NCBI GenBank assembly: GCA_027055805.1
Contig: JALUMR010000089.1
Location: forward strand, 1-32,206
Reading direction: 5' to 3'
DNA length: 32,206 bases
Origin: Campylobacteraceae bacterium
GTDB taxonomy: Bacteria; Campylobacterota; Campylobacteria; Campylobacterales; Sulfurovaceae
Below, piece by piece: positions 921 to 30,069 of this stretch. The notes under the pieces are model-generated. The model worked only from the letters and a program-made list of their open reading frames with translations, did no database searches and was not told where the DNA came from. The translations under genes were made by a program, and so were the position numbers. The first letter of the stretch is position 1. Each line of letters opens with the position of its first letter.

Positions 921-2117
921 TTATTTGGACTTATAAACTTCTTGCATCATTTTTATCCACTCTTTTGTAACGGGGTACTTTGTTTTTTGTCGTAGCCAGT
1001 CTTGCTCTTCGGTATAGTATATGGCGTATTTATCACTATATTTTAGGGCTTTTTGTAGGGTTCTTTTAATATCATTTATGCTGGATTTATTACGCGTATC
1101 AAACTCTTTATAACTGCTTTTTTGACCTTTGTTAAATACCATAAAGCCAACATTGACATCTTGTGACCAAGAGGCTCTATCTTTAGGTGGGACAAGCCAT
1201 TGGTAACTGCTGTTTAAATCATTGTTGTATTTATCTTTGGCAATATTGTATTTTCTCCACTCATAACTCTCTCTAAAGTGTTTATCTGCTCTGTATCTAT
1301 AGCTTTCACCCATATCGTAAAGGGTTGCATTTTTATCTAACCCCTCTTTGAAACCTGTAAAAATGGCACCTAAAAGTTCATGGGAACGAGGTAGCCCAAG
1401 CTCAACTATCAGTCGGTTATCTTTATTGGAGTTCGGATGTGAAAGTGCTGGACCGTGATAGACTAAAAGCGTAAGGTTTGGATTTGCTTTGACCATGCTT
1501 TTCATGATTTGTTTAAAAAGGGAGGTAACTTTGTCGCTATGCTCTTTAAATGTATATTTTGAATTACGATAGGCATGTTCATCGAACATAGCTTTTGTTT
1601 GGCTACCTTTTCTTTCCCATGCTTTAGAGTTTTTTGTTAACTCTTTTTTTGTTGGAAATTTAAAATTAATCATTTTTCTATCGTTGTCTCTATAGACTTC
1701 ATCATCAAAAACAATACCTTCAAAGTGTAGGTTAGCAGCTACTTGTGCAACTATGGCAAAGTTTTGTGTAACCTGTTCCCAAGCTGTTTTGTTCCAGTAG
1801 TCTTCAGGAAAGTGAATATCAACTCGAAGGAAATTGTGTTTATTTTTATAAAGGTCTTTTAGACCTTTTACTTCATTCCAAACGGTTTTATAGTCCAGTT
1901 TGGTTTTAGGTTTCATCACTTCATGGGTAAAGGTGTCTCCTACCACAATAAACCCAGAGAAGGGAAGCTTTTTAATAGTCTCATAGTTATCTATAAGATT
2001 TTTAGACATCATGGGGAGCCACTCATTCCCTTGAGCGAGTAGAAGATACTTCTCTTTAGCTTGTAGAGAGGTGAAAAGCAGAGGGATAATGACTAAAGTA
2101 TATAACATTTTTTTCAT
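921..2117 (-). CDS. Secreted TIM-barrel hydrolase-like protein (downstream copy of a tandem pair)
   Basis: This is a 398-residue protein with a clear Sec signal peptide (hydrophobic core at residues 5-18, likely cleavage after LQA at 18-20), so it is exported. The mature part has alternating strand-like and helix-like stretches. It carries an acidic FDDE motif at 137-140, following a small hydrophobic strand, as in glycoside-hydrolase-like TIM barrels where such acids are catalytic. The family is not one I can name, so hydrolase activity is inference. It is a close paralogue of the gene just upstream, matching along the whole length. It is the last gene of the minus-strand run that starts with the EpsG-like gene and ends at the 886-910 hairpin. 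The AAGGAA site upstream of the ATG fits the start. A role in trimming the exported polymer is a guess from context. Confidence 0.75.
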   Translation of the reverse strand: MKKMLYTLVIIPLLFTSLQAKEKYLLLAQGNEWLPMMSKNLIDNYETIKKLPFSGFIVVGDTFTHEVMKPKTKLDYKTVWNEVKGLKDLYKNKHNFLRVDIHFPEDYWNKTAWEQVTQNFAIVAQVAANLHFEGIVFDDEVYRDNDRKMINFKFPTKKELTKNSKAWERKGSQTKAMFDEHAYRNSKYTFKEHSDKVTSLFKQIMKSMVKANPNLTLLVYHGPALSHPNSNKDNRLIVELGLPRSHELLGAIFTGFKEGLDKNATLYDMGESYRYRADKHFRESYEWRKYNIAKDKYNNDLNSSYQWLVPPKDRASWSQDVNVGFMVFNKGQKSSYKEFDTRNKSSINDIKRTLQKALKYSDKYAIYYTEEQDWLRQKTKYPVTKEWIKMMQEVYKSK

Positions 2118-2150
2118 TTTTTTATTCCTTTTTTATAATGTATAATATTT
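2118..2150 (-). repeat. Leader copy left by tandem duplication
   Basis: Read on the minus strand, the spacer before the 398-residue gene repeats the sequence just before the 402-residue gene: AAATATTATA, then A or C, then ATTATAAAAAAGGAA. At the upstream copy the same bases encode the end of the SGNH protein (KNIINYKKG). The spacer therefore looks like a non-coding remnant of that gene's 3' end, carried along when the secreted-protein gene was duplicated. It also supplies the ribosome binding site. Confidence 0.65.
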
Positions 2151-3357
2151 ACTTGTTTTTATAGACATCTTGCATCATTTCCATCCAACCTTCTGTAAGA
2201 GGATAGGGTGTATTGGGACGTACCCAATCTTGCTCTTCGGTATAGTATATGGCATATTTATCACTATATTTTAGTGCTTTTTGCAGGGTTCTTTTAATAT
2301 CATCAATACTGGATTTGTTACGCGTATCAAACTCTTTAAATGTACTTCTTTGACCTTTATTAAAAACCATAAAACCTACATTGACATCATTTGACCATGA
2401 GGCTCTATCTCTAGGAGGGACAAGCCATTGGTAACTGCTGTCTATATCATTGTTATATTCATCTTTTGCAATATTGTACTTTCTCCACTGATAACTGTTT
2501 TTAAAGTGGTTCTCTTCTCGGTATCTGTAACTTTCTCCCATATCGTAAAGCGTCGCATTTTTATCTAATCCCTCTTTAAAACCTGCGAAAATGGCACCTA
2601 AATGTTCATGTAATCTGGGTGAACCTAGATTTACTATAAGTTGGTTGTCTTTATTGGAGTTAGGGTGTGAAAGTGCTGGACCATTGTATACTAAAACAGT
2701 AAGGTTTGGATTTATCTCTACCATGCTTTTCATTATCTCTTTAAAAAGGGAGGTGATTTTCTCGCTATGCTCTTTAAATGTATATTGTGGATTACGATAA
2801 GCATATTTATCAATAATAGTGTTCTCTTGACTACCTTTTCTTTCCCATGATGCAGAGTTATTGTTTAACTCATTTTTGGTTGGAAATTTAAAATTTACCA
2901 TTTTATGGTCATTCATGTCTTCATAAATCTCATCATCAAAAACAATACCGTCAAAGTGTAGGTCAGTAGCTACTTGTGCCACTATGGCAAAGTTTTGTGT
3001 AACCTGCTCCCAAGCGACATAGTCCCAGTAGTCTGCAGGAAAGTGAATATCAATTCTAAGAAAATTATGTTTGTTTTTATAAAGGTCTTTTAGACCTTTG
3101 ACTTCGTTCCAAACGGTTTGATAGTCCAGTTTGGTTTTAGGCTTCATTACTTCATGGGTAAAGGTGTCTCCTACTATAATAAAACCAGAGAAGGGAAGCT
3201 CTTTAATAGTGTTATAGTTATCTATAAGATTTTTAGACATCATGGGGAGCCATTCATTCCCCTGTGTAAGTAGAAGATACTTCTCTTTAGCTTGTAGCGA
3301 AGTGAAAAGTAGAGAGATAATAATTAGTTTATTCAGTTTGTAGAGTCTCTTTTTCAT
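2149..3357 (-). CDS. Secreted TIM-barrel hydrolase-like protein (upstream copy of a tandem pair)
   Basis: A 402-residue paralogue of the following gene. The N-terminus (positive, then hydrophobic to about residue 20, cleavage after LQA near 23) is a Sec signal peptide. The acidic FDDE motif is present near residue 140, as in its twin, and most positions agree by eye. Differences cluster in the signal peptide, in the segment after the FDDE motif (about residues 150-190) and near the C-terminus. The first 29 bases overlap the 3' end of the SGNH gene in another frame. The start is supported by AAGGAA seven bases before the ATG, which itself lies inside the SGNH gene, so the two are probably translated from one message. 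The function is not known; an exported polysaccharide-active enzyme is the most natural reading, from the fold-like pattern and from the neighbours. Confidence 0.75.
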   Translation of the reverse strand: MKKRLYKLNKLIIISLLFTSLQAKEKYLLLTQGNEWLPMMSKNLIDNYNTIKELPFSGFIIVGDTFTHEVMKPKTKLDYQTVWNEVKGLKDLYKNKHNFLRIDIHFPADYWDYVAWEQVTQNFAIVAQVATDLHFDGIVFDDEIYEDMNDHKMVNFKFPTKNELNNNSASWERKGSQENTIIDKYAYRNPQYTFKEHSEKITSLFKEIMKSMVEINPNLTVLVYNGPALSHPNSNKDNQLIVNLGSPRLHEHLGAIFAGFKEGLDKNATLYDMGESYRYREENHFKNSYQWRKYNIAKDEYNNDIDSSYQWLVPPRDRASWSNDVNVGFMVFNKGQRSTFKEFDTRNKSSIDDIKRTLQKALKYSDKYAIYYTEEQDWVRPNTPYPLTEGWMEMMQDVYKNK

Positions 3358-12897: not shown

Positions 12898-14310
12898 TTA
12901 GAAATTAAAATATAAAAATTCTGATACTTTATCTGCTTGTACCATGATATTGGTTAGTTGTAGCAAAGAGAGTACAAATAGGAAAGTAGTAATAAAGAGT
13001 ATTGTACTTTTAGAAAATTTCATTTTTATAATCTCATTAGAATTTTTGACGAAAATAACGACTAAAAATATAATAATATAAGCTATTTCAATAGTATCAA
13101 TAGTTATGTTTATATCTGAAAAGTTAAACATGGCTGTTAAAACCTTGATGGCATCATCCCACTCTTTTGCTCTAAAAAACACCCAAGCGATATTGACAAA
13201 GTTAAAAGTAAGAAACCAAGCAAACCAAGACCAAAGTTTGAAGCCTAGTTTACTCCATGCTCGGTTGATGACCAATGCCATACCATGTAAGAATCCCCAA
13301 AAAATAAAAGTCCAACCTGCACCATGCCAAATACCCCCAATAATAAAGGTAGCTAAGAGGTTGGTATAGGTTCTAAACTCTCCTTTTCTGTTCCCCCCTA
13401 AAGGAATGTAGATATAGTCTTTTAGAAATCTACTTAAAGTCATGTGCCATCGTCGCCAAAAGTCTTGTATGCTGGTGGCTTGGTAGGGACTGTTGAAGTT
13501 AATGGGTAGTTTAATGTTAAAGAGCAGGGCAGCACCAATTGCCATGTCTGTATAACCAGAGAAGTCAAAATAGAGTTGAAAGGTATAGGATAGTGAGCTT
13601 GACCATGCTTCAACAAGGTTGAGGGTGGTAGCCACATCAAAGCCTTCTGTAGCCCATACAGCAAAAGTATCGGCAATGACAACTTTTTTGAAGAGTCCTA
13701 TAGAGAAGATAAAAAGACCTATAGTTATGTTTCTATGGTTTTTAATTTTATTTCTAGTTTTAGCAAACTGAGGCATCATCTCTTTATGGTGAACAATAGG
13801 ACCTGCTATAAGTTGAGGAAAAAAGGTTACAAATAGTGCATAGTTTAAAAAGTCATACTCTTTTGTCTCTCTTCTATAGCTATCAACCAAATAGGATATT
13901 TGTTGAAAGGTAAAGAATGAGATTGCCAAAGGCAGTGCCAAGTGTAACAGTGGAGCATCCGAAGAGAAAACAAGGTTAAAGTTTTCAATAAAAAAATCAG
14001 AATATTTAAAATAACCAAGTAGTGCCAAATTGGAGACTATTCCAAAAATAAGAAGTGATTTTTTAGAAAATCTACTACGCTTATTTTTACTATCTTTGTT
14101 GTTTAGACTATTTCCCAAAATATAGTTAAAAAGCATAGATGACAATATAATGGGCAGATAAGCAATATTCCACCAAGAGTAAAAAAAGAGACTCGAAAAG
14201 ACGAGAAAACCTTTACTCGCTTCTGTCAGTCTCTTTTGGTTTAAATAAAAATATATAAAAAATGTTATGGGCAAAAATGCAAATATAAATGTATAACTAT
14301 TAAATAGCAC
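12898..14310 (-). CDS. MBOAT family O-acyltransferase (AlgI/DltB-like), copy 2
   Basis: The 470-residue polytopic protein is very similar to the MBOAT at 4463-5917 over about the first 400 residues. It carries HHKEMMPQF (about 174-182), FDFSGYTDMAIG (about 248-259), DFWRRWH and YIPLGGNRKG, and WHGAGW with the likely catalytic His329. The last 80 residues differ between the copies except for the end, KVSEFLYFNF, which both share. The start is a GTG at 14310, with AGGA six bases upstream; the copy 1 start is ATG. A TATAAT lies about 24 bases upstream. It is followed by the second SGNH-type partner. It should pass acyl groups across the inner membrane for O-acylation of the polymer. Confidence 0.93.
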   Translation of the reverse strand: MLFNSYTFIFAFLPITFFIYFYLNQKRLTEASKGFLVFSSLFFYSWWNIAYLPIILSSMLFNYILGNSLNNKDSKNKRSRFSKKSLLIFGIVSNLALLGYFKYSDFFIENFNLVFSSDAPLLHLALPLAISFFTFQQISYLVDSYRRETKEYDFLNYALFVTFFPQLIAGPIVHHKEMMPQFAKTRNKIKNHRNITIGLFIFSIGLFKKVVIADTFAVWATEGFDVATTLNLVEAWSSSLSYTFQLYFDFSGYTDMAIGAALLFNIKLPINFNSPYQATSIQDFWRRWHMTLSRFLKDYIYIPLGGNRKGEFRTYTNLLATFIIGGIWHGAGWTFIFWGFLHGMALVINRAWSKLGFKLWSWFAWFLTFNFVNIAWVFFRAKEWDDAIKVLTAMFNFSDINITIDTIEIAYIIIFLVVIFVKNSNEIIKMKFSKSTILFITTFLFVLSLLQLTNIMVQADKVSEFLYFNF

Positions 14311-14381: not shown

Positions 14382-15209
14382 TTATAGTTCTTTTTCGTGC
14401 CATTCTTGAGTATTACACTTTCTAAAGGAGGTTAAGCATTGGTCTACGTCGTATGACCAGTGAATAACTATGGGGTGAATGGTTGCACTATGATGTGTTC
14501 TAGTGTAGATGTCTACACCTAGTCTGACTCTTTGGTACTCATGAAACTGCTCTGAAAAGCTAACAAAGAGAACATTGGCTCCCTCTTTTTGGTGTAATCT
14601 TTCGTTAGCAAGTTTTGCAACCATGTCTAAAAAACTGGTTAAAATAAGACCACATCTTGGAATAATTTTTCCATCATCATTAACAAAACCTGCTGCGAGG
14701 TCATGTTTGTAGTCATCATCTTTTAAATAGGCTTTTCCGTCAATATTTATGAAACTGTCCGAGAGTGTTTTGTTCTTTTTGAGTGCTTTAAAGGCTCTGT
14801 TTTTTAAGTTACGTTCTGAGATGAGTCGTACTGATTCTTTACGAATATACTTTTGTCCGTCAACCATGGCATCTATAAACTCTTGAGAAGCTTCAGCACC
14901 GTCATCATCCAGATTATTAAGTAGGAGTGTTGGAATAATTTTAAACTTATGTTTGTGTTCTTGGATAATTTTGCCACAAAGTGCATTGGCAAATTTCATA
15001 TTTCTTTCTGCCCACGCTCTATTTTCTTCTTCAAGAGGGAGTGAAAAGTGTGCAATTTCTAGGACAATAATGGTTTTTTTGTCTTGGTTTTCTAACTGTT
15101 TATTTATAAGTTCATATAAATTGTTCAGTTTCTCTTCAGACCACTCTTCATAGGCTAGGGTAGGGGCTGAATACTCTTTATGGTTGGTTGGTGCAATACA
15201 TACTTCGAT
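14382..15209 (-). CDS. Unrecognised cytoplasmic protein, apparent AUC start
   Basis: The first ATG of this frame is at 14999 and would give 205 residues, but the frame stays open back to the stop of the AsnB-like gene. That extra part reads like real protein (for example EVCIAPTNHKEYS and EEENRAWAERNMKFANALC). No ATG, GTG or TTG occurs in it. An ATC codon at 15209-15207 sits exactly six bases after AAGGA (15216-15220), where a start would be expected, giving 275 residues. Either the gene starts with the rare AUC, or an ATG was changed by one base (mutation or sequence error). The protein has no signal peptide or membrane helix and has His- and Asp-rich stretches (YTRTHHSATIHPIVIHW at about 237-253). 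I recognise no family. Its place right after the AsnB-like gene suggests they work together. Confidence 0.6.
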   Translation of the reverse strand: MEVCIAPTNHKEYSAPTLAYEEWSEEKLNNLYELINKQLENQDKKTIIVLEIAHFSLPLEEENRAWAERNMKFANALCGKIIQEHKHKFKIIPTLLLNNLDDDGAEASQEFIDAMVDGQKYIRKESVRLISERNLKNRAFKALKKNKTLSDSFINIDGKAYLKDDDYKHDLAAGFVNDDGKIIPRCGLILTSFLDMVAKLANERLHQKEGANVLFVSFSEQFHEYQRVRLGVDIYTRTHHSATIHPIVIHWSYDVDQCLTSFRKCNTQEWHEKEL

Positions 15210-15212
15210 GGG

Positions 15213-17057
15213 TTATCCTTTAAAATTTTCGTACCAAAGTTGAAAGAGAAAAATTCTCCATAATCTGGTTTTATGGTTGTTATTTCCATTGTAAAAATCA
15301 TCACGTATCTTAATTATATCATAAGAGTTAAATATATCGTCTTTATCTAACCTCTCTTTGTTTACTTGTGCATAAACAAGCTCTTTTAGTTCATTTCGCA
15401 TCCAGGAATCAAAATAAACAGTAAATCCACTCTTAGGTCTATCGAGAAGATTTTTAGGTATATAGGTATGGGCAATCTCTTTTAAAACATATTTTTTAAT
15501 ACCATCTTTTATTTTGATAGAGGAGGGAACCTTTGCCATATAAGAGATGAGTTTTTCATCTAAAAATGGAGTATGAATAGAGATGTTGTTATGGTTGGCT
15601 GCTGAGTAGCTTTTAACCAACTCTCCATCGGTCATGGTTGTTTTAAAGTAAACACCAATAATTTCATCAACAGTTTCATGGTGTCCATTAAAGTCAATCT
15701 CATCAAACGTTGTATAGATAGGTTGGTGATAGCCTTTAATGAGTGATTGTAATTCTTTTTCTCTAAAGGTCATAATTTTAGTTTTGGTCATTTGAGGAAT
15801 ATTTTTAGCAGAAAGTATGGAGAGTAGTTTTTCACATTTTGTTGGAAGGTTGTTGATGTCTCTCAAAAGGGGAAGTGCCTCAATATTTACATTTTTTAAT
15901 GGATTTATGAGAGCTTTTCTTATGCTATAGGGGAGTGATATAATGCGATTAAAAAAATGAACATCATCTGCAGTTGCAAAGACTTCATCTCCTCCATCAC
16001 CTATAAATAGATGCTCTATGCCCTCTGCTTTTATCATCTCTGTAGTTAAGAGTGTTGGTGCAGCTGCATGGTCAGAAAAAGGCTCATCATAAATTTCAGA
16101 GAGCTTAGGGATAATGTTTGTAACATCTTTAGCTGTAAAATAGTGTTCATGATGTTTTGTTCCTAAATGAGCAGCGATTGCTTTTGCATGAGGTGCTTCA
16201 TTTATGTTGTCATCTTCAAAACCAATAGTAAATGTTTCAAGATTGTAGTCACTTCTATTTTTAAGTAGAGCAGCAATGGTTGAGCTGTCATATCCACCAC
16301 TTAAAGAGAGAGAAACAGTTTTATGGTCTATTTCAGATTTTTTAATGGCAGAGACGAGTAATGCTTCTGCATCAGTTATAATTTTAGTTTCAATTTCAGA
16401 TTCATCTAAAGGGAATTTTTTAGTGTCATATTCAGACTCCAAGCTCCAATAAGTCGTGTTAAAGTGTTCTTTTTTTCTCAAGTCAAAGTTGGTAGATGTT
16501 CCAGATTTGACTTTATAGCAATCTTTTAAAATGGTGTTGGGTTGTATAACTGAGCCGAATTGTAAATAGTTTGCTACTGAATCTATACGAATGGTAGGCA
16601 TAAAATTAGGAGCATTTTTAAAATCATTTATTCGACTACCAAAAACAATAAGCTCTTCAGAGAAATAATAACTTAAAGGAATTAATCCAATTTTATCTTT
16701 ATATAAAATCAAGTATTTGTTAACTTTATCAAAAATGATAAGCGTGAAGTCTCCTTCTAAATATTTAATTAGATCCTTCCCCCATACCAAATAGGCTTGG
16801 TTGATAAGGTCAATGGTAGCTAGGGAGTTGTTTGAAATATTAAGCTTTGAAATCAAGAAAGACCTATTTGAAACTCTTCCATTGAAAAGTAGTAAGGTCT
16901 CTTTATTGTCAATAGATTTAGACTCTTTATGTTTAGTATAGGATAAAAATATATTATACTCTTGATATTTATAATAATAAGTCTTTTTATGATGAACATT
17001 ACTCTCTATAGAAAAATCATTTTTTCTGTAATCAATAAATCCAAAAAAGTTTTGCAT
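15213..17057 (-). CDS. AsnB-like amidotransferase homologue lacking the glutaminase Cys
   Basis: The 614-residue protein has the two-domain layout of asparagine synthetase B. The C-terminal synthetase part is intact: the PP-loop SGGYDSS at 253-259, FTIGFEDD with NEAPHA, the DEPFSDHAA block (about 329-337), GDGGDEVFA (about 354-362) and PKSGFT near the C-terminus. The N-terminal glutaminase domain is degenerate. It begins MQNFFGF in place of MCGIVGF, so the Cys2 nucleophile is missing; FNG (58-60) remains, but the HRGPD and SDTE signatures are gone. The start is firm because AAAGGA precedes this ATG. The enzyme may use free ammonia, rely on another glutaminase, or catalyse a different ATP-dependent ligation, as beta-lactam synthetase does. 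In polysaccharide loci AsnB homologues usually amidate uronic acids. It is the first gene of a minus-strand run. Confidence 0.85.
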   Translation of the reverse strand: MQNFFGFIDYRKNDFSIESNVHHKKTYYYKYQEYNIFLSYTKHKESKSIDNKETLLLFNGRVSNRSFLISKLNISNNSLATIDLINQAYLVWGKDLIKYLEGDFTLIIFDKVNKYLILYKDKIGLIPLSYYFSEELIVFGSRINDFKNAPNFMPTIRIDSVANYLQFGSVIQPNTILKDCYKVKSGTSTNFDLRKKEHFNTTYWSLESEYDTKKFPLDESEIETKIITDAEALLVSAIKKSEIDHKTVSLSLSGGYDSSTIAALLKNRSDYNLETFTIGFEDDNINEAPHAKAIAAHLGTKHHEHYFTAKDVTNIIPKLSEIYDEPFSDHAAAPTLLTTEMIKAEGIEHLFIGDGGDEVFATADDVHFFNRIISLPYSIRKALINPLKNVNIEALPLLRDINNLPTKCEKLLSILSAKNIPQMTKTKIMTFREKELQSLIKGYHQPIYTTFDEIDFNGHHETVDEIIGVYFKTTMTDGELVKSYSAANHNNISIHTPFLDEKLISYMAKVPSSIKIKDGIKKYVLKEIAHTYIPKNLLDRPKSGFTVYFDSWMRNELKELVYAQVNKERLDKDDIFNSYDIIKIRDDFYNGNNNHKTRLWRIFLFQLWYENFKG

Positions 17058-17087: not shown

Positions 17088-17213
17088 ACATAAATAATCA
17101 AAAAATAATATAAAAAAAAGCTTATCTATGAGATAATATCTTATAAAATAAAAAAAAAGGTAAAAAATATTAATAATAATACTAATTTAAATAATTTATA
17201 TATTTTTAAGTGG

Positions 17214-18494
17214 ATGCTAAAGCGATTTGGATTTATTAAAAGTATATTTTTTCAAATAATTGATAAGTTGATTTATCAAGAGCAGTCTCAGTTTCTGCTT
17301 CACTTTTGGCGTGGACATCGTACGCCATTTCAAAGCATATTGTTTTACAACCGTTTTGGTCGAATTTTATTTGCAGGGAAAGAGTTTATGGCTTTCTTAA
17401 GCAAAGGAAAATTGATAAAAAAAAACATTCGTTTAGAAGGTTATGAAGAGATAGAGCGTGATTTTAGAAAGGGAGATTACACTTACTTATATCCTATCTC
17501 ACCAATGGTGGACAGAAGAATTGAACCCATTGAAGAGAGCTATTTAAGAAAAATTGAAAACTCTTTAGAGTTAGCTTATATTATGGAAAACAATATTTTT
17601 GATAAAACAGAGGAGTGGGATAGGGTTACCGATGTATTTAAGTCACTTTTTTTTAAAGATGATGGAGAGATAGACCCAGCTAAACTTAGTCAATTTAGAG
17701 CCACCTCTAAGCGTTGTGAAGAGGTTTTTGGTGACCAGTTTTACTATGTAGACCAAGATGTCGGTTATACCAAAGCTTATCTGAAAGCGATTGATTTGAT
17801 TTTAGAGTATCATCGTTATTCAAAAGTGATAAAAAAAGAGTTATTATCATCTGTTTCTGAGAGTAAAGTTGGAGGAAGTGCTTCTGTTTTCTATAGAGGA
17901 CAGTACTTAAGTGAAAAGCTTCTTTTCCATACTTTAATGGTTAATGATATTACTACACATATAGATTTTGATAAAAATAAGCGTAATGTTATTGTGGATA
18001 TCGGTTCAGGTTATGGGGGCTTAGATAGATTGCTCTCTTATTATATTCCAAATGCTTGTTTTGTTTTGGTTGATTTACCAGAGACGCTACTTTTGACCTC
18101 TTACTATATGGAACATAATTTTCCAAATAAAAAGATAGCACTTTTAAGTGATATTGCTGACAGATTAGATGAGTTTGATGCTTTGGTTTTAGAATATGAC
18201 TTTATTCTTGTGCCTCCTTCTGTTGTTGAAAAAATATCAACAGCGACTGTAGATTTGGTCGTAAATAGTGCCTCTTTAGGATTTATGCAGCAAGATTATG
18301 TGCGTTATTATCTCGAACATATCTATCGTATATTACGTACTAGAGGACATTTTTATTCACTGAACAAAGAGTATAATGACCATTTAGGAATTGGTTTTTA
18401 CTCTTGGGACTTCAAAGGTTCATACTTAACAAAATTGATGGAGTACAACAACCGTTTCTCTTATGCTCAATGGTTAGGAGAGAAGGTTGACTAA
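17214..18494 (+). CDS. Putative sugar O-methyltransferase (NanM-like)
   Basis: A 426-residue protein that matches the putative sugar O-methyltransferase family (NanM type). It has a long N-terminal helical part. A SAM-binding core follows: VDIGSGYGGLDRLLSYY (about 263-279), VDLPETLLLTSYY (about 287-299), and a late NSASLGFM (about 347-354) before YRILRTRGHFYSLN. These proteins methylate sugars of surface polysaccharides in the cytoplasm, probably on activated or lipid-linked precursors. It starts a plus-strand run of three genes; the next gene begins a few bases after its stop. The ribosome binding site is poor (AAGTGG directly before the ATG), so the true start could lie a little further downstream. 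Domain identification is from motif memory. Confidence 0.72.
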   Translation: MLKRFGFIKSIFFQIIDKLIYQEQSQFLLHFWRGHRTPFQSILFYNRFGRILFAGKEFMAFLSKGKLIKKNIRLEGYEEIERDFRKGDYTYLYPISPMVDRRIEPIEESYLRKIENSLELAYIMENNIFDKTEEWDRVTDVFKSLFFKDDGEIDPAKLSQFRATSKRCEEVFGDQFYYVDQDVGYTKAYLKAIDLILEYHRYSKVIKKELLSSVSESKVGGSASVFYRGQYLSEKLLFHTLMVNDITTHIDFDKNKRNVIVDIGSGYGGLDRLLSYYIPNACFVLVDLPETLLLTSYYMEHNFPNKKIALLSDIADRLDEFDALVLEYDFILVPPSVVEKISTATVDLVVNSASLGFMQQDYVRYYLEHIYRILRTRGHFYSLNKEYNDHLGIGFYSWDFKGSYLTKLMEYNNRFSYAQWLGEKVD

Positions 18495-24538: not shown

Positions 24539-26473
24539 TTACTCAGCAGCAGATAAAGTAATGTTGTCTAAATACCCACCTGTTGTGTGAAATATTATAA
24601 TTTTAATAATTTCATTATTAGGCTCTAGTCTATGTAATTCATCATCTATGTTCACTTCAAAGTGGTTCCATAAACTTGTTGATGAATATCCATATCCACG
24701 TACCATCTCTACAGGAGAAGGGTAGTTTAAGAAGATATTGTGTCCATTATCATGTTTTCTTGGTGGATAACCTTGATGAGTGTACCACGAATCCCATGTC
24801 ATGATTCTTCTTCCTAATTTTGTTTCAACAATAACACCAACACCATAATGAGGAATAAAGCCTCTATGACTTTCAGGGTGATTATGGAGTAGATGGGTTG
24901 GTAATCCTCCCATATCCATAGATAATACTCTTTGTGAAGTATTGTTTAGTGGAAGGTGGTATCTATATATTGTAGCTCCACCATTTGCATGTTGAACCAA
25001 GACTCCTGTACCTTCTGGTGCACCAGGTATATCTGGGGTAGGGTAAACGTATCCATCTATATTTCCTAGTACTGTTTGCCAGTTAGGGTTAAGGGTACCA
25101 TTTTCTGCATCTTCAAGCACAGTAGGAACTTCAGGATTTGCTGGTATCAATTCTAGTTCAGCTGTAGCTCTTAAGAGATAATCAGATGCTCTAAATCCAG
25201 ATATTCCTATAAATACTTCTGTATCATCAGAGATACTAAGTGAACAGGAATTTGAACTCGCTCCCATATCAACACCTCTACAATCATAAGATGCTCTTGT
25301 AGGCTTTTCACCTTTTTTCATGTAGATATGAGCAATATTGGTGAGTTCACTTATAGTTGCTATAACTTTATCTCCCAAATGAGCTTGTATTTTATAATAT
25401 TTCATATCACCTCTTGCTACAGAACCAGATACTGATTCACCAGAAACTAAAGTAGGTATAGCCCCACCAACATTACCATTATGGAGTGTAGCAGTTATGG
25501 TATAGTTACTTGATTGGTATCCGTAAACAGTTATGAATGCAGTGGTGTTCTGAGTTGCAGTAATGGAACACCCATCATCTTGAGTATTGCTGTTGGTTGA
25601 TTTACAATCAAAAGAGCTACCTGTTGGAAGTTCACCCATTTTTACATATAAATCACTATCAGCAGAGAGATTGCTTATTAAAGAATCCAAAGATTGACCT
25701 GCTGACATGTCGATTTTATAGTGTTTCTCTGCTCTTTCATTAACTGAGCCAGATATGGCTTGAGCAGAAGTCAAAGTAGTGATAGGATTTTCTTCACCAT
25801 GACTTTTGGTTACAGTTATTTGATAATCTGCTGCTCTACGTCCATAAACACGTACATAAACTCTAGCATCATGGTCTAAGGTTACAGAACAGCTTTCATT
25901 TTGTGTACCAGCATTGGTTGATTGACAATCATTTTTACTGCTTGTTGGTCTGCCACCCACTCTTACATATATATTTGCATTATCAGATAGTCCAGTTAGA
26001 TTGGATGTAATGATATCTCCACTTGAAGCAGAGATTAAATAATAATGCGACTTACCTCTATTGACATGACCAGATACACTCTCTCCTGAGGTAACTATTG
26101 TATCATTTTCAGAAAGGTGATTTTTAGTTGCCGTAACTTGATAGTTGGTTGCTCTTCGTCCATAAACCCGTACATAAACTGTTGCATCATGGTCTACTAG
26201 TGCAGAACAACTATCATTCTCTATACCACCATTGGTTGATTTACAATCATAAGAACTGCTCGTTGGTCTAGCTCCCACTCTTACATATACGTCGGCATTA
26301 TCTGTTAGTCCCTCTAAAATGGACGAAATGACATCCCCTCTTGAGGCAGAGATTAAATAATAATTTGATTGACCTCTATCTACATGACCAGATACAGTCT
26401 GACCAGATACAACTGCTGTATCATTTGCAAACAGTACATTTGCGAATATTAAAAAGAATATAATTTTCTTCAT
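24539..26473 (-). CDS. Secreted protein with four PPC domains and an unassigned C-terminal domain
   Basis: About 644 residues from the ATG at 26473, whose AGGAGA context is shared with its paralogues; a GTG six bases earlier is open but less likely. A signal peptide (about 1-16, cleavage after LFA) precedes four PPC-like beta domains (about 17-122, 123-227, 228-335 and 336-443). Each has GD or GQ at the third strand, a DxYV strand, a CX11C pair and a VYxRVYG-like final strand. The C-terminal domain (about 444-644) has EDAENGTLNPNW, the RYHLP strand, RRIMTWDSWYTHQGYP and NGHNIFLNYPSP, and ends GGYLDNITLSA. I cannot name it; a carbohydrate-binding beta sandwich is a fair guess. The first PPC domain appears duplicated relative to the two paralogues. 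No protease residues are seen, so it is likely a matrix or adhesive protein. Confidence 0.82.
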   Translation of the reverse strand: MKKIIFFLIFANVLFANDTAVVSGQTVSGHVDRGQSNYYLISASRGDVISSILEGLTDNADVYVRVGARPTSSSYDCKSTNGGIENDSCSALVDHDATVYVRVYGRRATNYQVTATKNHLSENDTIVTSGESVSGHVNRGKSHYYLISASSGDIITSNLTGLSDNANIYVRVGGRPTSSKNDCQSTNAGTQNESCSVTLDHDARVYVRVYGRRAADYQITVTKSHGEENPITTLTSAQAISGSVNERAEKHYKIDMSAGQSLDSLISNLSADSDLYVKMGELPTGSSFDCKSTNSNTQDDGCSITATQNTTAFITVYGYQSSNYTITATLHNGNVGGAIPTLVSGESVSGSVARGDMKYYKIQAHLGDKVIATISELTNIAHIYMKKGEKPTRASYDCRGVDMGASSNSCSLSISDDTEVFIGISGFRASDYLLRATAELELIPANPEVPTVLEDAENGTLNPNWQTVLGNIDGYVYPTPDIPGAPEGTGVLVQHANGGATIYRYHLPLNNTSQRVLSMDMGGLPTHLLHNHPESHRGFIPHYGVGVIVETKLGRRIMTWDSWYTHQGYPPRKHDNGHNIFLNYPSPVEMVRGYGYSSTSLWNHFEVNIDDELHRLEPNNEIIKIIIFHTTGGYLDNITLSAAE

Positions 26474-26522
26474 TAACACGTCTCCTATTTTTTATAAAGT
26501 TTATTTTATTTTTTAGAATAAA

Positions 26523-26553
26523 ATCACATTATATCACATGAAATGTTTTTTAT
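26523..26553 (-). promoter_or_regulatory. Conserved promoter block, first PPC-repeat gene
   Basis: On the minus strand, an A-rich stretch with ACATTT is followed by ATGTGATATAATGTGAT. This holds the extended -10 TGATATAAT (TATAAT at 26528-26533) and two direct TGTGAT copies 10 bases apart. The 31-base block is nearly identical before all three PPC-repeat genes. The leader to the ATG would be about 48 bases. Confidence 0.6.
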
Positions 26554-26605
26554 GGTTTAATATTTATTCTTATGAATTGTTGTTTGAAGTGAAGTTTTTG
26601 GAGAA

Positions 26606-26638
26606 TACCAGAGAAAGAGTAGAACTCTTTCTCTGGTA
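26606..26638 (-). terminator. Terminator hairpin of the second PPC-repeat gene
   Basis: TACCAGAGAAAGAGT (26606-26620) and ACTCTTTCTCTGGTA (26624-26638) form a 15 bp perfect stem with a 3-base loop, 11 bases after the stop of the gene at 26650. It is the longest of three related stems. There is no long T-run, but the stem is strong. Confidence 0.6.
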
Positions 26639-26649
26639 CTTAAGAGGGG

Positions 26650-28272
26650 TTAGTTAGCAGCAGATAAAGTAATATTATCTAAGTAACCACCTGTTGTGTG
26701 AAATGTTGTAATTCTAATAATGTCATTATTAGGTTCTAGTGCATGTAGTGCATCATCTAAATTAACTTCAAAGTGGTTCCATAAACGTGTTGATGCATAT
26801 CCATATCCACGTACCATCTCTACAGGAGACGGGTAGTTTAAGAAGATGTTGTGTCCATTGTCATGTTTTCTTGGTGGGTAACCTTGATGGGTGTACCAAG
26901 AGTCCCATGTCATGAATCTTCTTCCCAATTTTGTTTGGACAATAACACCCACCCCATAATGAGGGATATAACCTCTAGGTGTACCGTTATTGAACTTGTG
27001 GTTTGGTAATCCACCGATATCCATAGATAGTACTCTTTGTGAATTATTATTTACTGGAAGGTGGTATCTATAAAGTGTGGCTCCACCAGAAGCATGTTGA
27101 ACCAATACCCCTGTACCTGATGGTGCCCCAGGAATATGTGGAGTAGGGTAAATATAACTAGGTTCATGTCCTATTACAATTTGCCAGTTAGGGTTAAGGG
27201 TTCCACCTTCTGCATCTTCAAGAACAGTAGGAATTTCAGGGTTTGCTGGTATCAATCCCCCTTGAGTAGTAACAGTTAAGAGATAATCAGATGCTCTAAA
27301 TCCAGATACGCCTATAAATACTTCAGTATCTGAAGAGATATTGAGTGCACATGAGTTTGAACTTACGCCCATTTTAACAGCTCTACAATCATAAGATGAT
27401 CTTGTAGGCTTACTGCCTCTTCTTAGATAAATATGAGCATGATTGGTTAGTTCGCTTATGGTAGCTATAACTCTCTCTCCATGTTTTACATCTATTTTAT
27501 AGTATTTCATAGCATCTCGTGCTACGGAACTGGATACAACTTCACCAGAGACTAAAGTGGTGATGTTGTTTCCTCCACCTCCACCACCATTGTGACGTGT
27601 AGCAGTTAAAGTATAGTTACCAGCTTGGTATCCATAAACTGTTATGAATGCAATAGTGTTTTGGGTTGCTGTAATGGAACAACCATCATCTTGAGTATTA
27701 CGATTACTTGATTTACAATCATAAGCATTACCTGTTGGTAGTTTGCCCATTCTAACATATAAATCATTATCTGCAGATAGATGAGTTATTAGAGAGTCCA
27801 AAGATTGATCTGCTCCCATTCTAATTCTATAGTGCTTCTCTTCTCCTTTATCAACTGAATCAGATATGGTTTGACCTGAAGTTAAAGTTCTTATATCATT
27901 ATCATTACCTCCACCATGACTTTTAGTAAGAGTTATATGATAATTTGTTGCTCTACGTCCATAAACGCGTACATAAACTGTAGCATCACGAGTTATTCTT
28001 ATAGAACAATTTTCATTTTGTCTGCCACCATGGGTTGCTCTACACTGATTCCTTCTGCTTGTTGGTCTAGCACCCACTCGTACATATAAGTCTGCATTAT
28101 TGCTCAGTCCCCTTAAATGTGATGTAATCGTATCACCTTTTGAAGCAGAGATTAAATAATAATTTGACTCACCTCTATTGACATGACCAGACACCGTCTG
28201 TCCCGATGTAACGGATGTATCATTTGCAAACAGTAGATTTGCAAACATTAAAAAGAATATGATTTTCTTCAT
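26650..28272 (-). CDS. Secreted protein with three PPC domains and the shared C-terminal domain
   Basis: A 540-residue paralogue of its neighbours. The signal peptide (about 1-16) is followed by three PPC-like domains (about 17-122, 125-230 and 237-345), each with a CX11C pair, then the roughly 195-residue C-terminal domain with RRFMTWDSWYTHQGYP and GGYLDNITLSA. The first PPC domain is unusually rich in Arg (for example RRNQCRATHGG), which may give it a distinct charge. Glycine-rich linkers (GGGN, GGGGG) separate the domains. A clear AGGAGA ribosome binding site precedes the ATG at 28272. It has its own conserved promoter block and terminator, so it is a single-gene unit. Function unknown; likely an extracellular matrix or surface protein acting with the polysaccharide. 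Confidence 0.82.
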   Translation of the reverse strand: MKKIIFFLMFANLLFANDTSVTSGQTVSGHVNRGESNYYLISASKGDTITSHLRGLSNNADLYVRVGARPTSRRNQCRATHGGRQNENCSIRITRDATVYVRVYGRRATNYHITLTKSHGGGNDNDIRTLTSGQTISDSVDKGEEKHYRIRMGADQSLDSLITHLSADNDLYVRMGKLPTGNAYDCKSSNRNTQDDGCSITATQNTIAFITVYGYQAGNYTLTATRHNGGGGGGNNITTLVSGEVVSSSVARDAMKYYKIDVKHGERVIATISELTNHAHIYLRRGSKPTRSSYDCRAVKMGVSSNSCALNISSDTEVFIGVSGFRASDYLLTVTTQGGLIPANPEIPTVLEDAEGGTLNPNWQIVIGHEPSYIYPTPHIPGAPSGTGVLVQHASGGATLYRYHLPVNNNSQRVLSMDIGGLPNHKFNNGTPRGYIPHYGVGVIVQTKLGRRFMTWDSWYTHQGYPPRKHDNGHNIFLNYPSPVEMVRGYGYASTRLWNHFEVNLDDALHALEPNNDIIRITTFHTTGGYLDNITLSAAN

Positions 28273-28330
28273 TAATACTTCTCCTATTTTTTATAAATTT
28301 TATTTTGTATTGTTTTATTTCTAAAACAAT

Positions 28331-28361
28331 ATCACACTATATCACATAAAATGTTTTTTAT
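28331..28361 (-). promoter_or_regulatory. Conserved promoter block, second PPC-repeat gene
   Basis: Same block as before the neighbouring paralogues. Here the -10 reads TATAGT (28336-28341), one base off consensus, so this copy may be weaker. Two TGTGAT copies lie 10 bases apart. The leader would be about 57 bases. Confidence 0.55.
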
Positions 28362-28415
28362 TGTTTAATATTTATTAGTATTTATTATTGTAAAGTGAAG
28401 CTTTAGGAGAGTAAA

Positions 28416-28440
28416 AGAGAAAGAGTTTAACTCTTTCTCT
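28416..28440 (-). terminator. Terminator hairpin of the third PPC-repeat gene
   Basis: AGAGAAAGAGT (28416-28426) and ACTCTTTCTCT (28430-28440) form an 11 bp perfect stem with a 3-base loop, 15 bases after the stop of the gene at 28456. Same stem core as the two paralogous units. Confidence 0.55.
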
Positions 28441-28455
28441 AGTAGTTAAAAAGAT

Positions 28456-30069
28456 TTAATTAGCAGCAGATAAAGTAATATTATCTAGGTAACCACCTGT
28501 TGTGTGAAATATTATAATTTTAATAATTTCATTATTAGGCTCTAGTTTATGTAATTCATCATCTATGTTCACTTCAAGATGAGTCCATAAATTTGTTGGT
28601 GCATACCATCCACGTACCATCTCTACAGGAGATGGGTAGTTTAAGAATATATTGTGTCCATTGTCATGTTTTCTTGGTGGATAACCTTGGTGTGTGTACC
28701 AAGAATCCCATGTCATGATTCTTCTTCCTAATCTCGTTTCAACAATAACTCCCACACCATAATGAGGGATATATCCTCTATGACTTTCAGAGTAGTTGCT
28801 AAATTTATGTGTTGGTAATCCACCTATATCCATAGATAATACTCTTTGTGAAGTATTGTTTACTGGAAGATGGTATCTATAGAGTGTGGCTCCACCAGAA
28901 GCATGCTGAACCAATACACCTGTACCTGATGGTGCACCAGCAATATCTGGAGTAGGGTAAATGTATCCAGGTTCATTTCCTATCACAATTTCCCAGTTAG
29001 GGTTAAGGGTACCATTTTCTGCATCTTCAAGAACAGTAGGCACTGCAGGGTTTGCTGGTATTAATTCTAGTTCAGCCGTAGCAGTTAAAAGATAATCTGA
29101 TGCTCTAAATCCAGATACGCCTATGAATACTTCAGTATCATCAGAGATATTAAGTGAACAGGAGTTTGTAGTTGCTCCCATATCAACACCTCTACAATCA
29201 AAAGATTCTCTTGTAGGCTTTTCACCTTTTTTCATGTAGATATGAGCAATATTGGTGAGTTCACTTATAGTCGCTATAACTTTATCTCCCAAATGTGCAT
29301 TGATTTTATAATATTTCATATCACCTCTTGCGACAGAACCAGATACTACTTCCCCAGAAGCTAAAGTAGTGACACCATCTCCTCCACCATTACCACCATG
29401 GAGTGTAGCCGTTAAGGTATAGTTAGCAGCACGATATCCGTAAACAGTAATATATGCAGTAGTATTTTGTGTTGCTGTAACGGAACAGGCATCATTTTGA
29501 GTATTGCCATTGGTTGATCTGCAATCATAAAAATCTCTTGTTGCTATTTGACCCATTCTAACATATAAATCATTATCATCAGTAAGGTTACTTATTAATG
29601 AGTCTAATGATTGACCTGTTGTCATGTTAATTTGATAATGTTTTTCTGCTCCTTGAGCAACAGAATCAGAGATGGCTTGACCAGAAGTCAATGTAGGTAT
29701 GTTGTTCCCAGCACCATTTTTTGTTACTGTCACTTGATAGTCTGTTGCTCTATGTCCATAAACACGTACATAAACCATAGCATCATGATCTAATGTTACA
29801 GAACAATTTTCATTTTCTATACCACCATTGGTTGATGTACAATCATTTCTACTACTTGTTGGTCTACCACCTATTTTTACATATAAATCAGCATTATCAC
29901 CTAGTCCAACTAGATTGGAGGTAATGGTGTCTCCATTTGAAGCAGAGATTAGGTAATAGTTTGACTCACCTCTATTGACATGACTGGACACTGTCTGTCC
30001 AAACACAACTGATGTATCACTTGCAAAAAGTAGATTTGCAAAGATTAAAAAGAATATGATTTTCTTCAT
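28456..30069 (-). CDS. Secreted protein with three PPC domains and the shared C-terminal domain
   Basis: The 537-residue protein is the promoter-most member of the tandem trio. Layout: signal peptide (about 1-16, LFA then SD), PPC domains at about 17-120, 121-226 and 227-335, then the shared C-terminal domain (about 336-537) with EDAENGTLNPNW, RRIMTWDSWYTHQGYP and a short deletion (MVRGWYAP) where the others read MVRGYGY. All three PPC domains keep the CX11C Cys pair, probably a disulfide in the oxidising outer compartment. Start: ATG at 30069 with AGGAG upstream. The gene faces away from the Wzc-like gene across a 213-base spacer (30070-30282), so matrix protein and polymer export may be controlled from one region. 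Function is inferred from context only. Confidence 0.82.
   Translation of the reverse strand: MKKIIFFLIFANLLFASDTSVVFGQTVSSHVNRGESNYYLISASNGDTITSNLVGLGDNADLYVKIGGRPTSSRNDCTSTNGGIENENCSVTLDHDAMVYVRVYGHRATDYQVTVTKNGAGNNIPTLTSGQAISDSVAQGAEKHYQINMTTGQSLDSLISNLTDDNDLYVRMGQIATRDFYDCRSTNGNTQNDACSVTATQNTTAYITVYGYRAANYTLTATLHGGNGGGDGVTTLASGEVVSGSVARGDMKYYKINAHLGDKVIATISELTNIAHIYMKKGEKPTRESFDCRGVDMGATTNSCSLNISDDTEVFIGVSGFRASDYLLTATAELELIPANPAVPTVLEDAENGTLNPNWEIVIGNEPGYIYPTPDIAGAPSGTGVLVQHASGGATLYRYHLPVNNTSQRVLSMDIGGLPTHKFSNYSESHRGYIPHYGVGVIVETRLGRRIMTWDSWYTHQGYPPRKHDNGHNIFLNYPSPVEMVRGWYAPTNLWTHLEVNIDDELHKLEPNNEIIKIIIFHTTGGYLDNITLSAAN

Follow-up and report, generated by a model that had tools for sequence, protein, structure and literature searches.

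Putative AUC Initiation and Recurrent Candidate AUH Starts in a Sulfurovum-like Genus of Campylobacterota

The minus-strand gene located at positions 14382-15209 of the window (that is, the whole stretch of DNA analyzed in this work, 32,206 nucleotides long) most probably starts at the AUC codon in positions 15209-15207, through an initiation anchored by a Shine-Dalgarno (SD) sequence and carried out by the ordinary fMet tRNA with a mismatch at the third base; we assign to this reading a probability of about 0.87. Moreover, the comparison of orthologous sequences suggests that the Sulfurovum-like genus harboring this gene (hereinafter, the AUC gene) repeatedly uses AUC, AUU, or AUA (AUH) as start codons in unrelated genes. 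The evidence is comparative throughout, and the genomes of the genus are largely MAGs, coming from several independent MAG projects.

Organization of the AUC Gene and of Its Start Site

The features of the window around the start site are the following:

14382..15209, minus strand: AUC gene, 275 codons counted from AUC, with a product of an unnamed family; full-length alignment with 30 homologues, dN well below dS in the codons before the first ATG
15207..15209, minus strand: putative AUC initiation codon; retained as ATC/ATA by 12 of the 13 genomes of the genus, ATG there or one codon off in distant homologues
15216..15221, minus strand: Shine-Dalgarno sequence AAAGGA, separated from AUC by six bases; shared by the 13 genomes of the genus that possess the AUC gene
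15213..15215, minus strand: TAA stop codon closing the AsnB-like gene, with a gap of three bases to AUC; TAA/TAG in the species of the genus
14997..14999, minus strand: first in-frame ATG, 70 codons downstream of ATC, not the start; a truncation here would lose the invariant E50-N69
15213..17057, minus strand: AsnB-like amidotransferase gene, conserved upstream partner; PF00733 with 9.5e-67, TIGR03108-like below the cut-off

The minus-strand reading around the start is AAA GGA TAA CCC ATC GAA GTA TGT ATT GCA CCA, with AAGGA at 15220-15216, CCC at 15212-15210, and ATC at 15209-15207; the AAAGGA motif also encodes the final two residues (K-G) of the AsnB-like protein, whose gene shares the reading frame of the AUC gene in the window. 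The frame following ATC spans positions 15206-14382, the stop codon ending at 14382, and its scanning did not retrieve any ATG, GTG, or TTG between ATC and the ATG at 14999-14997. The original prediction had described a frame open for 70 codons before its first ATG and devoid of these three codons, with an ATC placed exactly six bases after AAGGA; the reading of the frame and of the sequence confirmed both statements.

Coding Status and Conservation of the AUC Start

The comparison with homologues indicates that the frame of the AUC gene is coding from its first codon onward. The same-genus protein matches retrieved by a search over relatives start at residue 1, and the homologues from 12 further genomes of the genus are conserved from the codon directly after ATC. 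Within codons 2-70, dN is about 0.05-0.34 and dS ranges from 0.26 to saturation, and the differences at third positions amount to 0.51 vs. 0.30 and 0.18 at the other ones. The 70 upstream codons had been said to read like real protein, which is borne out both by this conservation and by dN values well below dS. Furthermore, the extended protein aligns over the full length with 30 homologues, whose starts do not lie near ATG 14999; residues E50, H53, W65, A66, N69, and F72 are invariant across all of them, the first five being encoded upstream of the first ATG. Since a truncation at ATG 14999 would remove the invariant E50-N69, this codon is not the start.

The 13 genomes of the genus possessing the gene harbor ATC (ten), ATA (two), or ATG (one, G031) at the start, preceded in all cases by AAAGGA; the non-canonical start is thus retained in 12 species out of 13, and in 12 of the 13 genomes the gap between AAAGGA and ATC/ATA is of six bases. 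In G031, the ATG comes after an ATA that preserves the six-base spacing. These data strengthen the AUC start, one of the options originally put forward; another one, a recent change from ATG to ATC, is ruled out by the occurrence of ATC/ATA in 12 of 13 genomes from several independent MAG projects. At loci L010 and L025 (G009), a one-base difference shifts the AsnB frame, producing a 16-base overlap with the downstream start, and AAAGGATAA-N3-ATC is kept.

The more distant homologues, mostly also located beside AsnB, carry an ATG (M-E-D-C, M-G-C) that is either aligned with the AUC position or shifted by one codon downstream. At L036 and L015, ATT or ATG immediately precedes the start ATG (ATG ATG, ATT ATT ATG); in some distant homologues, such a preceding codon may represent a route between AUG and AUH starts.

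According to the tree, the AUC gene underwent a single start-state change within the genus, and in most comparisons of codons 2-70 the synonymous sites are near saturation with the start still being AUH. The likeliest scenario suggested by these sequences is that the change from AUG to AUC/AUA predates the ancestor of the 13 species and has been retained while synonymous sites became saturated. The gene was found in 13 of the 34 same-genus genomes and in scattered other families of the order, and was absent from the other sampled genera of its own family; this patchy distribution across the families of the order is likely due to a horizontal transfer of the AsnB pair.

Candidate AUH Starts in Other Genes of the Genus

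The search of the motif AAAGGATANNNNATHGAA across the genus retrieved a second gene with the same start, coding for a rhomboid protease (PF01694). We also carried out a codon-blind survey of the genes with a coding signal upstream of their first canonical start, recording which codon follows an SD; it pooled 2.0 Mb of the genus (1,802 genes), with 620 kb of other genera (538 genes) for comparison. Among the SD-linked codons in upstream coding extensions, 9 out of 15 were ATH in three sets from the genus, vs. a background of 6-14%, and two out of three were ATC in a sample of the genome to which the window belongs. In the pooled 2.0 Mb, repeated support was obtained for five families (the AUC gene, QueH, rhomboid, PriA, and NFACT/RqcH), with an overwhelming predominance of ATC, ATT, or ATA; no recurrent family with SD-linked AUH starts was retrieved by the survey from the 620 kb (538 genes) of other genera. 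The other SD-linked codons (AAC, ACC, CGT, TAT, and AAA) occurred once or twice each. A DEAD-box helicase gene has an ATC start in one genome only, and the start of its orthologue was not found among the loci examined. The survey covers part of each genome. It undercounts AUH genes, given that a gene is registered only if 8-10 codons or more lie before the next canonical start. In the genome of the window itself, NFACT, starting at ATC (L261:2867, AAAGGAGAAAAA ATC AGA CAC), is another clear case.

The distribution of start codons among the genomes of the genus is as follows:

AUC gene: AUH in 12, canonical in 1 (13 genomes)
QueH: AUH in 23 of 26 genomes, canonical in 3
PriA: AUH in 18 of 24 genomes, canonical in 6
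rhomboid: AUH in 15 of 29 genomes, canonical in 14
NFACT/RqcH: AUH in 11 of 22 genomes, canonical in 11

Over the five families, this gives 79 AUH vs. 35 canonical starts within the genus, proportions that are not genome-wide rates, QueH, PriA, NFACT, rhomboid, and the helicase having been chosen for possessing an AUH member. In the other sampled genera, the four shared genes have canonical starts in 35 orthologues, and one rhomboid is unclassified. QueH, the plainest case, begins in the genus as ILVHICC with ATT, ATC, or ATA, and elsewhere as MLVHICC or with TTG; a stop codon is often located one to seven codons before the start. Within the genus, C, T, and A all occur as the third base of the start, the first two being invariant; this is what would be expected if a mismatch at the third base is tolerated, and agrees with the in vitro IF3 rule of strict Watson-Crick pairing at the first two bases (PMC10158994). 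Several start-state changes were placed on the tree (six for PriA, four for rhomboid, four for NFACT, and three for QueH), which leaves the direction of the change open for some of the genes.

The window may embed a further gene of this kind:

17169..18494, plus strand: possible second AUU-started gene, methyltransferase-like (annotated-type ATG at 17214; AAAAGG followed by ATT at 17169), tentative

In its orthologue from G031 (L021), the codons before the ATG are conserved and that ATG reads ATT, with no canonical start over 66 codons. A small methyltransferase-like gene on the minus strand of L188 (G033), near position 3125, shows ATA after AGGAGG; an ATG occupies this position in the sister species G021 (L197) and in others, and the alignment suggests a recent switch from AUG to AUA. 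We had also considered an ATT start for this gene, and discarded it since the ATA is aligned opposite the ATG of the sister species.

Only tentatively, one might extend these observations to a genus in which the third start base is largely free wherever the SD is strong, AUN being a general start, possibly via a changed initiation machinery (IF3, 16S rRNA, or initiator modification). Such starts, PriA included, would then concern perhaps 10-30 genes per genome, a rough extrapolation from the 4-6 found in 606 kb of G025, two stretches of which were picked for holding known cases.

Relationship between Start Codon and Shine-Dalgarno Strength

In the genus, start-codon quality and SD strength run in opposite directions. 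The mean SD energy is -6.8 kcal/mol for the 79 AUH starts vs. -2.6 kcal/mol for the 35 canonical orthologues of the genus; an SD core lies 4-7 bases from the start in 76 of the former, and no core was detected in 30 of the latter. The assignment to the AUH or canonical class was made without use of the SD. The NFACT GTG starts of G010 and G026, counted as canonical, may be AUH, which renders the split conservative. A rank test on the SD difference gave p = 4e-13, with related species treated as independent; phylogenetically independent pairs, summed over four genes, were about 11.6 in the same direction and about 0.4 in the opposite one, the informative pairs being 0 to 5 per gene and no single gene being significant.

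Proposed Mechanism and Alternative Explanations

In the mechanism that we propose, AAAGGA would anchor the 30S subunit six bases from the AUC codon, and the fMet initiator tRNA (anticodon CAU) would pair with A and U and mismatch the third base, so that the protein would begin with Met and not with Ile. Initiation would proceed below the efficiency of AUG, braked by IF3, resulting in a low and possibly growth-dependent expression; both the reduced output and the IF3 control of AUH starts are expected by analogy with known systems. The original prediction had likewise suggested that an AUC start would keep expression low, which is plausible in the light of these precedents. As for the components involved, IF3 was found in 31 of the 34 genomes of the genus, and its alignment with solved IF3 sequences revealed full-length proteins with no part missing. 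We also searched for an initiator tRNA with an altered anticodon by means of the initiator-type anticodon loop GGGCTNATAACCC, whose matches, present in 29 of the 34 genomes, all read CAU; the initiator tRNA sequences examined look ordinary. Given the CAU loops, the ordinary initiator tRNAs, and the full-length IF3, the known mechanism is the simplest one.

In the case of the AUC gene, reinitiation may add to this, as nearly all species have three bases between the AsnB stop and AUC. An unlikely reading, though the one that survives best among the alternatives, brings this to the extreme: ribosomes terminating AsnB translation at TAA would restart at AUC, de novo initiation being negligible. 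The start codon would be unchanged and only the source of the ribosomes would differ. Besides the position of the stop, this would fit with AsnB being the upstream partner at most loci and with G009, where the coupling distance is kept, the end of AsnB lying 16 bases beyond the first base of AUC. However, QueH, PriA, NFACT, and rhomboid have SD-N6-AUH with varied upstream sequences and no common stop spacing; hence, coupling is not needed for the AUH starts of the genus.

A second alternative is a special initiator reading Ile codons (a tRNA with a GAU anticodon or a modified C34), which would make AUH starts fully efficient and unattenuated. The use of all three Ile codons and the excess of AUH over canonical starts in the five families speak for it; the uniformly CAU loops and the ordinary initiator sequences speak against it, even though modifications are invisible in DNA, and the association of AUH with a strong SD argues for a weak start. 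On balance, we consider it very improbable.

Even less credit can be given to read-through of the AsnB stop, yielding an AsnB fusion and leaving the AUC gene without a start of its own. The original prediction had raised this option from the shared frame and the single TAA between the two genes, and that arrangement is indeed found in the window and, with one stop and the same frame, in most species of the genus; the fusion itself does not hold, since the stop is never swapped for a sense codon (TAG replaces it in one species), the sequence that follows it is variable, the frames of AsnB and of the AUC gene differ in G009, and the distant homologues, located downstream of AsnB, start at an ATG of their own. 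A start at ATG 14999, the first canonical one in frame, with the preceding 70 codons as leftover sequence, is hardly credible in view of the protein-level conservation of those codons, with their invariant residues and low dN, and of homologues beginning with ATG at the upstream end of the stretch. Lastly, the sequencing error (or private mutation of an ATG) originally suspected, for which a single base in MAG data would be enough, is ruled out for practical purposes by ATC/ATA in 12 of the 13 species from unrelated assemblies.

Comparison with Known Non-Canonical Starts

AUH starts, of which infC and pcnB are examples, are regarded as rare and go uncalled by common bacterial gene finders. Our literature search, whose coverage excluded many subscription papers, retrieved no report of AUH starts for Sulfurovum or Campylobacterota; isolated AUH or near-cognate starts are known (infC, sigR, ccpN/cvfC1), and their genus-wide use in housekeeping genes appears to be new.

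The closest likeness is with Staphylococcus aureus, where cvfC1 (AUU), ccpN (AUA), and citZ and infC (AUA) have the same AUH codons behind a strong, extended SD, and where, in poor medium, the AUU/AUA starts reach about 10% of the expression obtained with AUG; the starts of cvfC1 and ccpN are conserved between species, like those of the genus (PMC13009471). In that Firmicutes species, four genes are concerned, with start sites mapped and reporters measured (PMC13009471), whereas in the Campylobacterota genus at least five orthologue-supported families, including PriA and QueH, are concerned, and they are known from their sequences alone.

The infC gene starts at ATT in E. coli and at ATC in Streptomyces and is autoregulated by IF3, as cited in PMC5472188; its conserved AUH start is read by fMet-tRNA and discriminated by IF3, a role that in the genus would be played by IF3 in the same way. 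The AUH genes of the genus, however, do not code for IF3, and its own infC apparently starts at TTG. At the infC loci L100-L129, this apparent TTG start is conserved (AAGGTAA AAT/GAT TTG AGT), and appears to be a weak start unlike the AUU/AUC/AUA known elsewhere. Streptomyces sigR has a GTC start repressed by IF3 and missed by annotation. This start, conserved in some 30 species and preceded by a strong SD, resembles those of our genes in its third-base mismatch; sigR differs in being a single gene with GTC/GTT (PMC5472188), the genus having AUH in several genes.

Belinky et al. (2017) reported that the SD compensates for GUG/UUG starts, and counted 1 AUG-to-AUU switch per 61,358 ancestral AUG starts, AUU being outside their coupling analysis (PMC5622118). 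The weaker start codon goes with the stronger SD in the genus as well, but its AUH starts are recurrent and long-lived. The visible trade with SD strength reverses between related species; this, in turn, would make start-codon discrimination by IF3 and start-codon evolution testable by comparison. As a practical consequence, wrong annotations are to be expected for many of the N-termini of these bacteria.

The AUC-Gene Protein and Its Genomic Context

Sequence searches against Pfam, NCBIfam, and PDB gave zero family matches for the AUC-gene protein. Its AF2 model (pLDDT 85) was probed with Foldseek, obtaining weak matches, several of which with ATP-using enzymes of the HUP fold (NAD synthetase, class I aaRS, MshC); with E values of about 2e-3 to 2e-2 and TM scores of only about 0.36-0.41, they are too weak for assigning a function. 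The AsnB-like gene lies upstream of the AUC gene at most homologous loci, across families, and our best guess is that the protein is a partner of the AsnB-like enzyme. On the other side, the AUC gene is flanked by an acyltransferase gene:

12898..14310, minus strand: MBOAT O-acyltransferase gene; PF03062 with 4.5e-41

This adjacency is found in the closest species only. The cluster of the window embedding the AUC gene includes MBOAT acyltransferases, glycosyltransferases, and flippases, and we presume it to be an exopolysaccharide locus. It also harbors, at 921-3357 (minus strand), a tandem pair of closely similar proteins and, at 24539-30069 (minus strand), three neighboring paralogous proteins of the secreted type, with shared repeats and a shared C-terminal domain.
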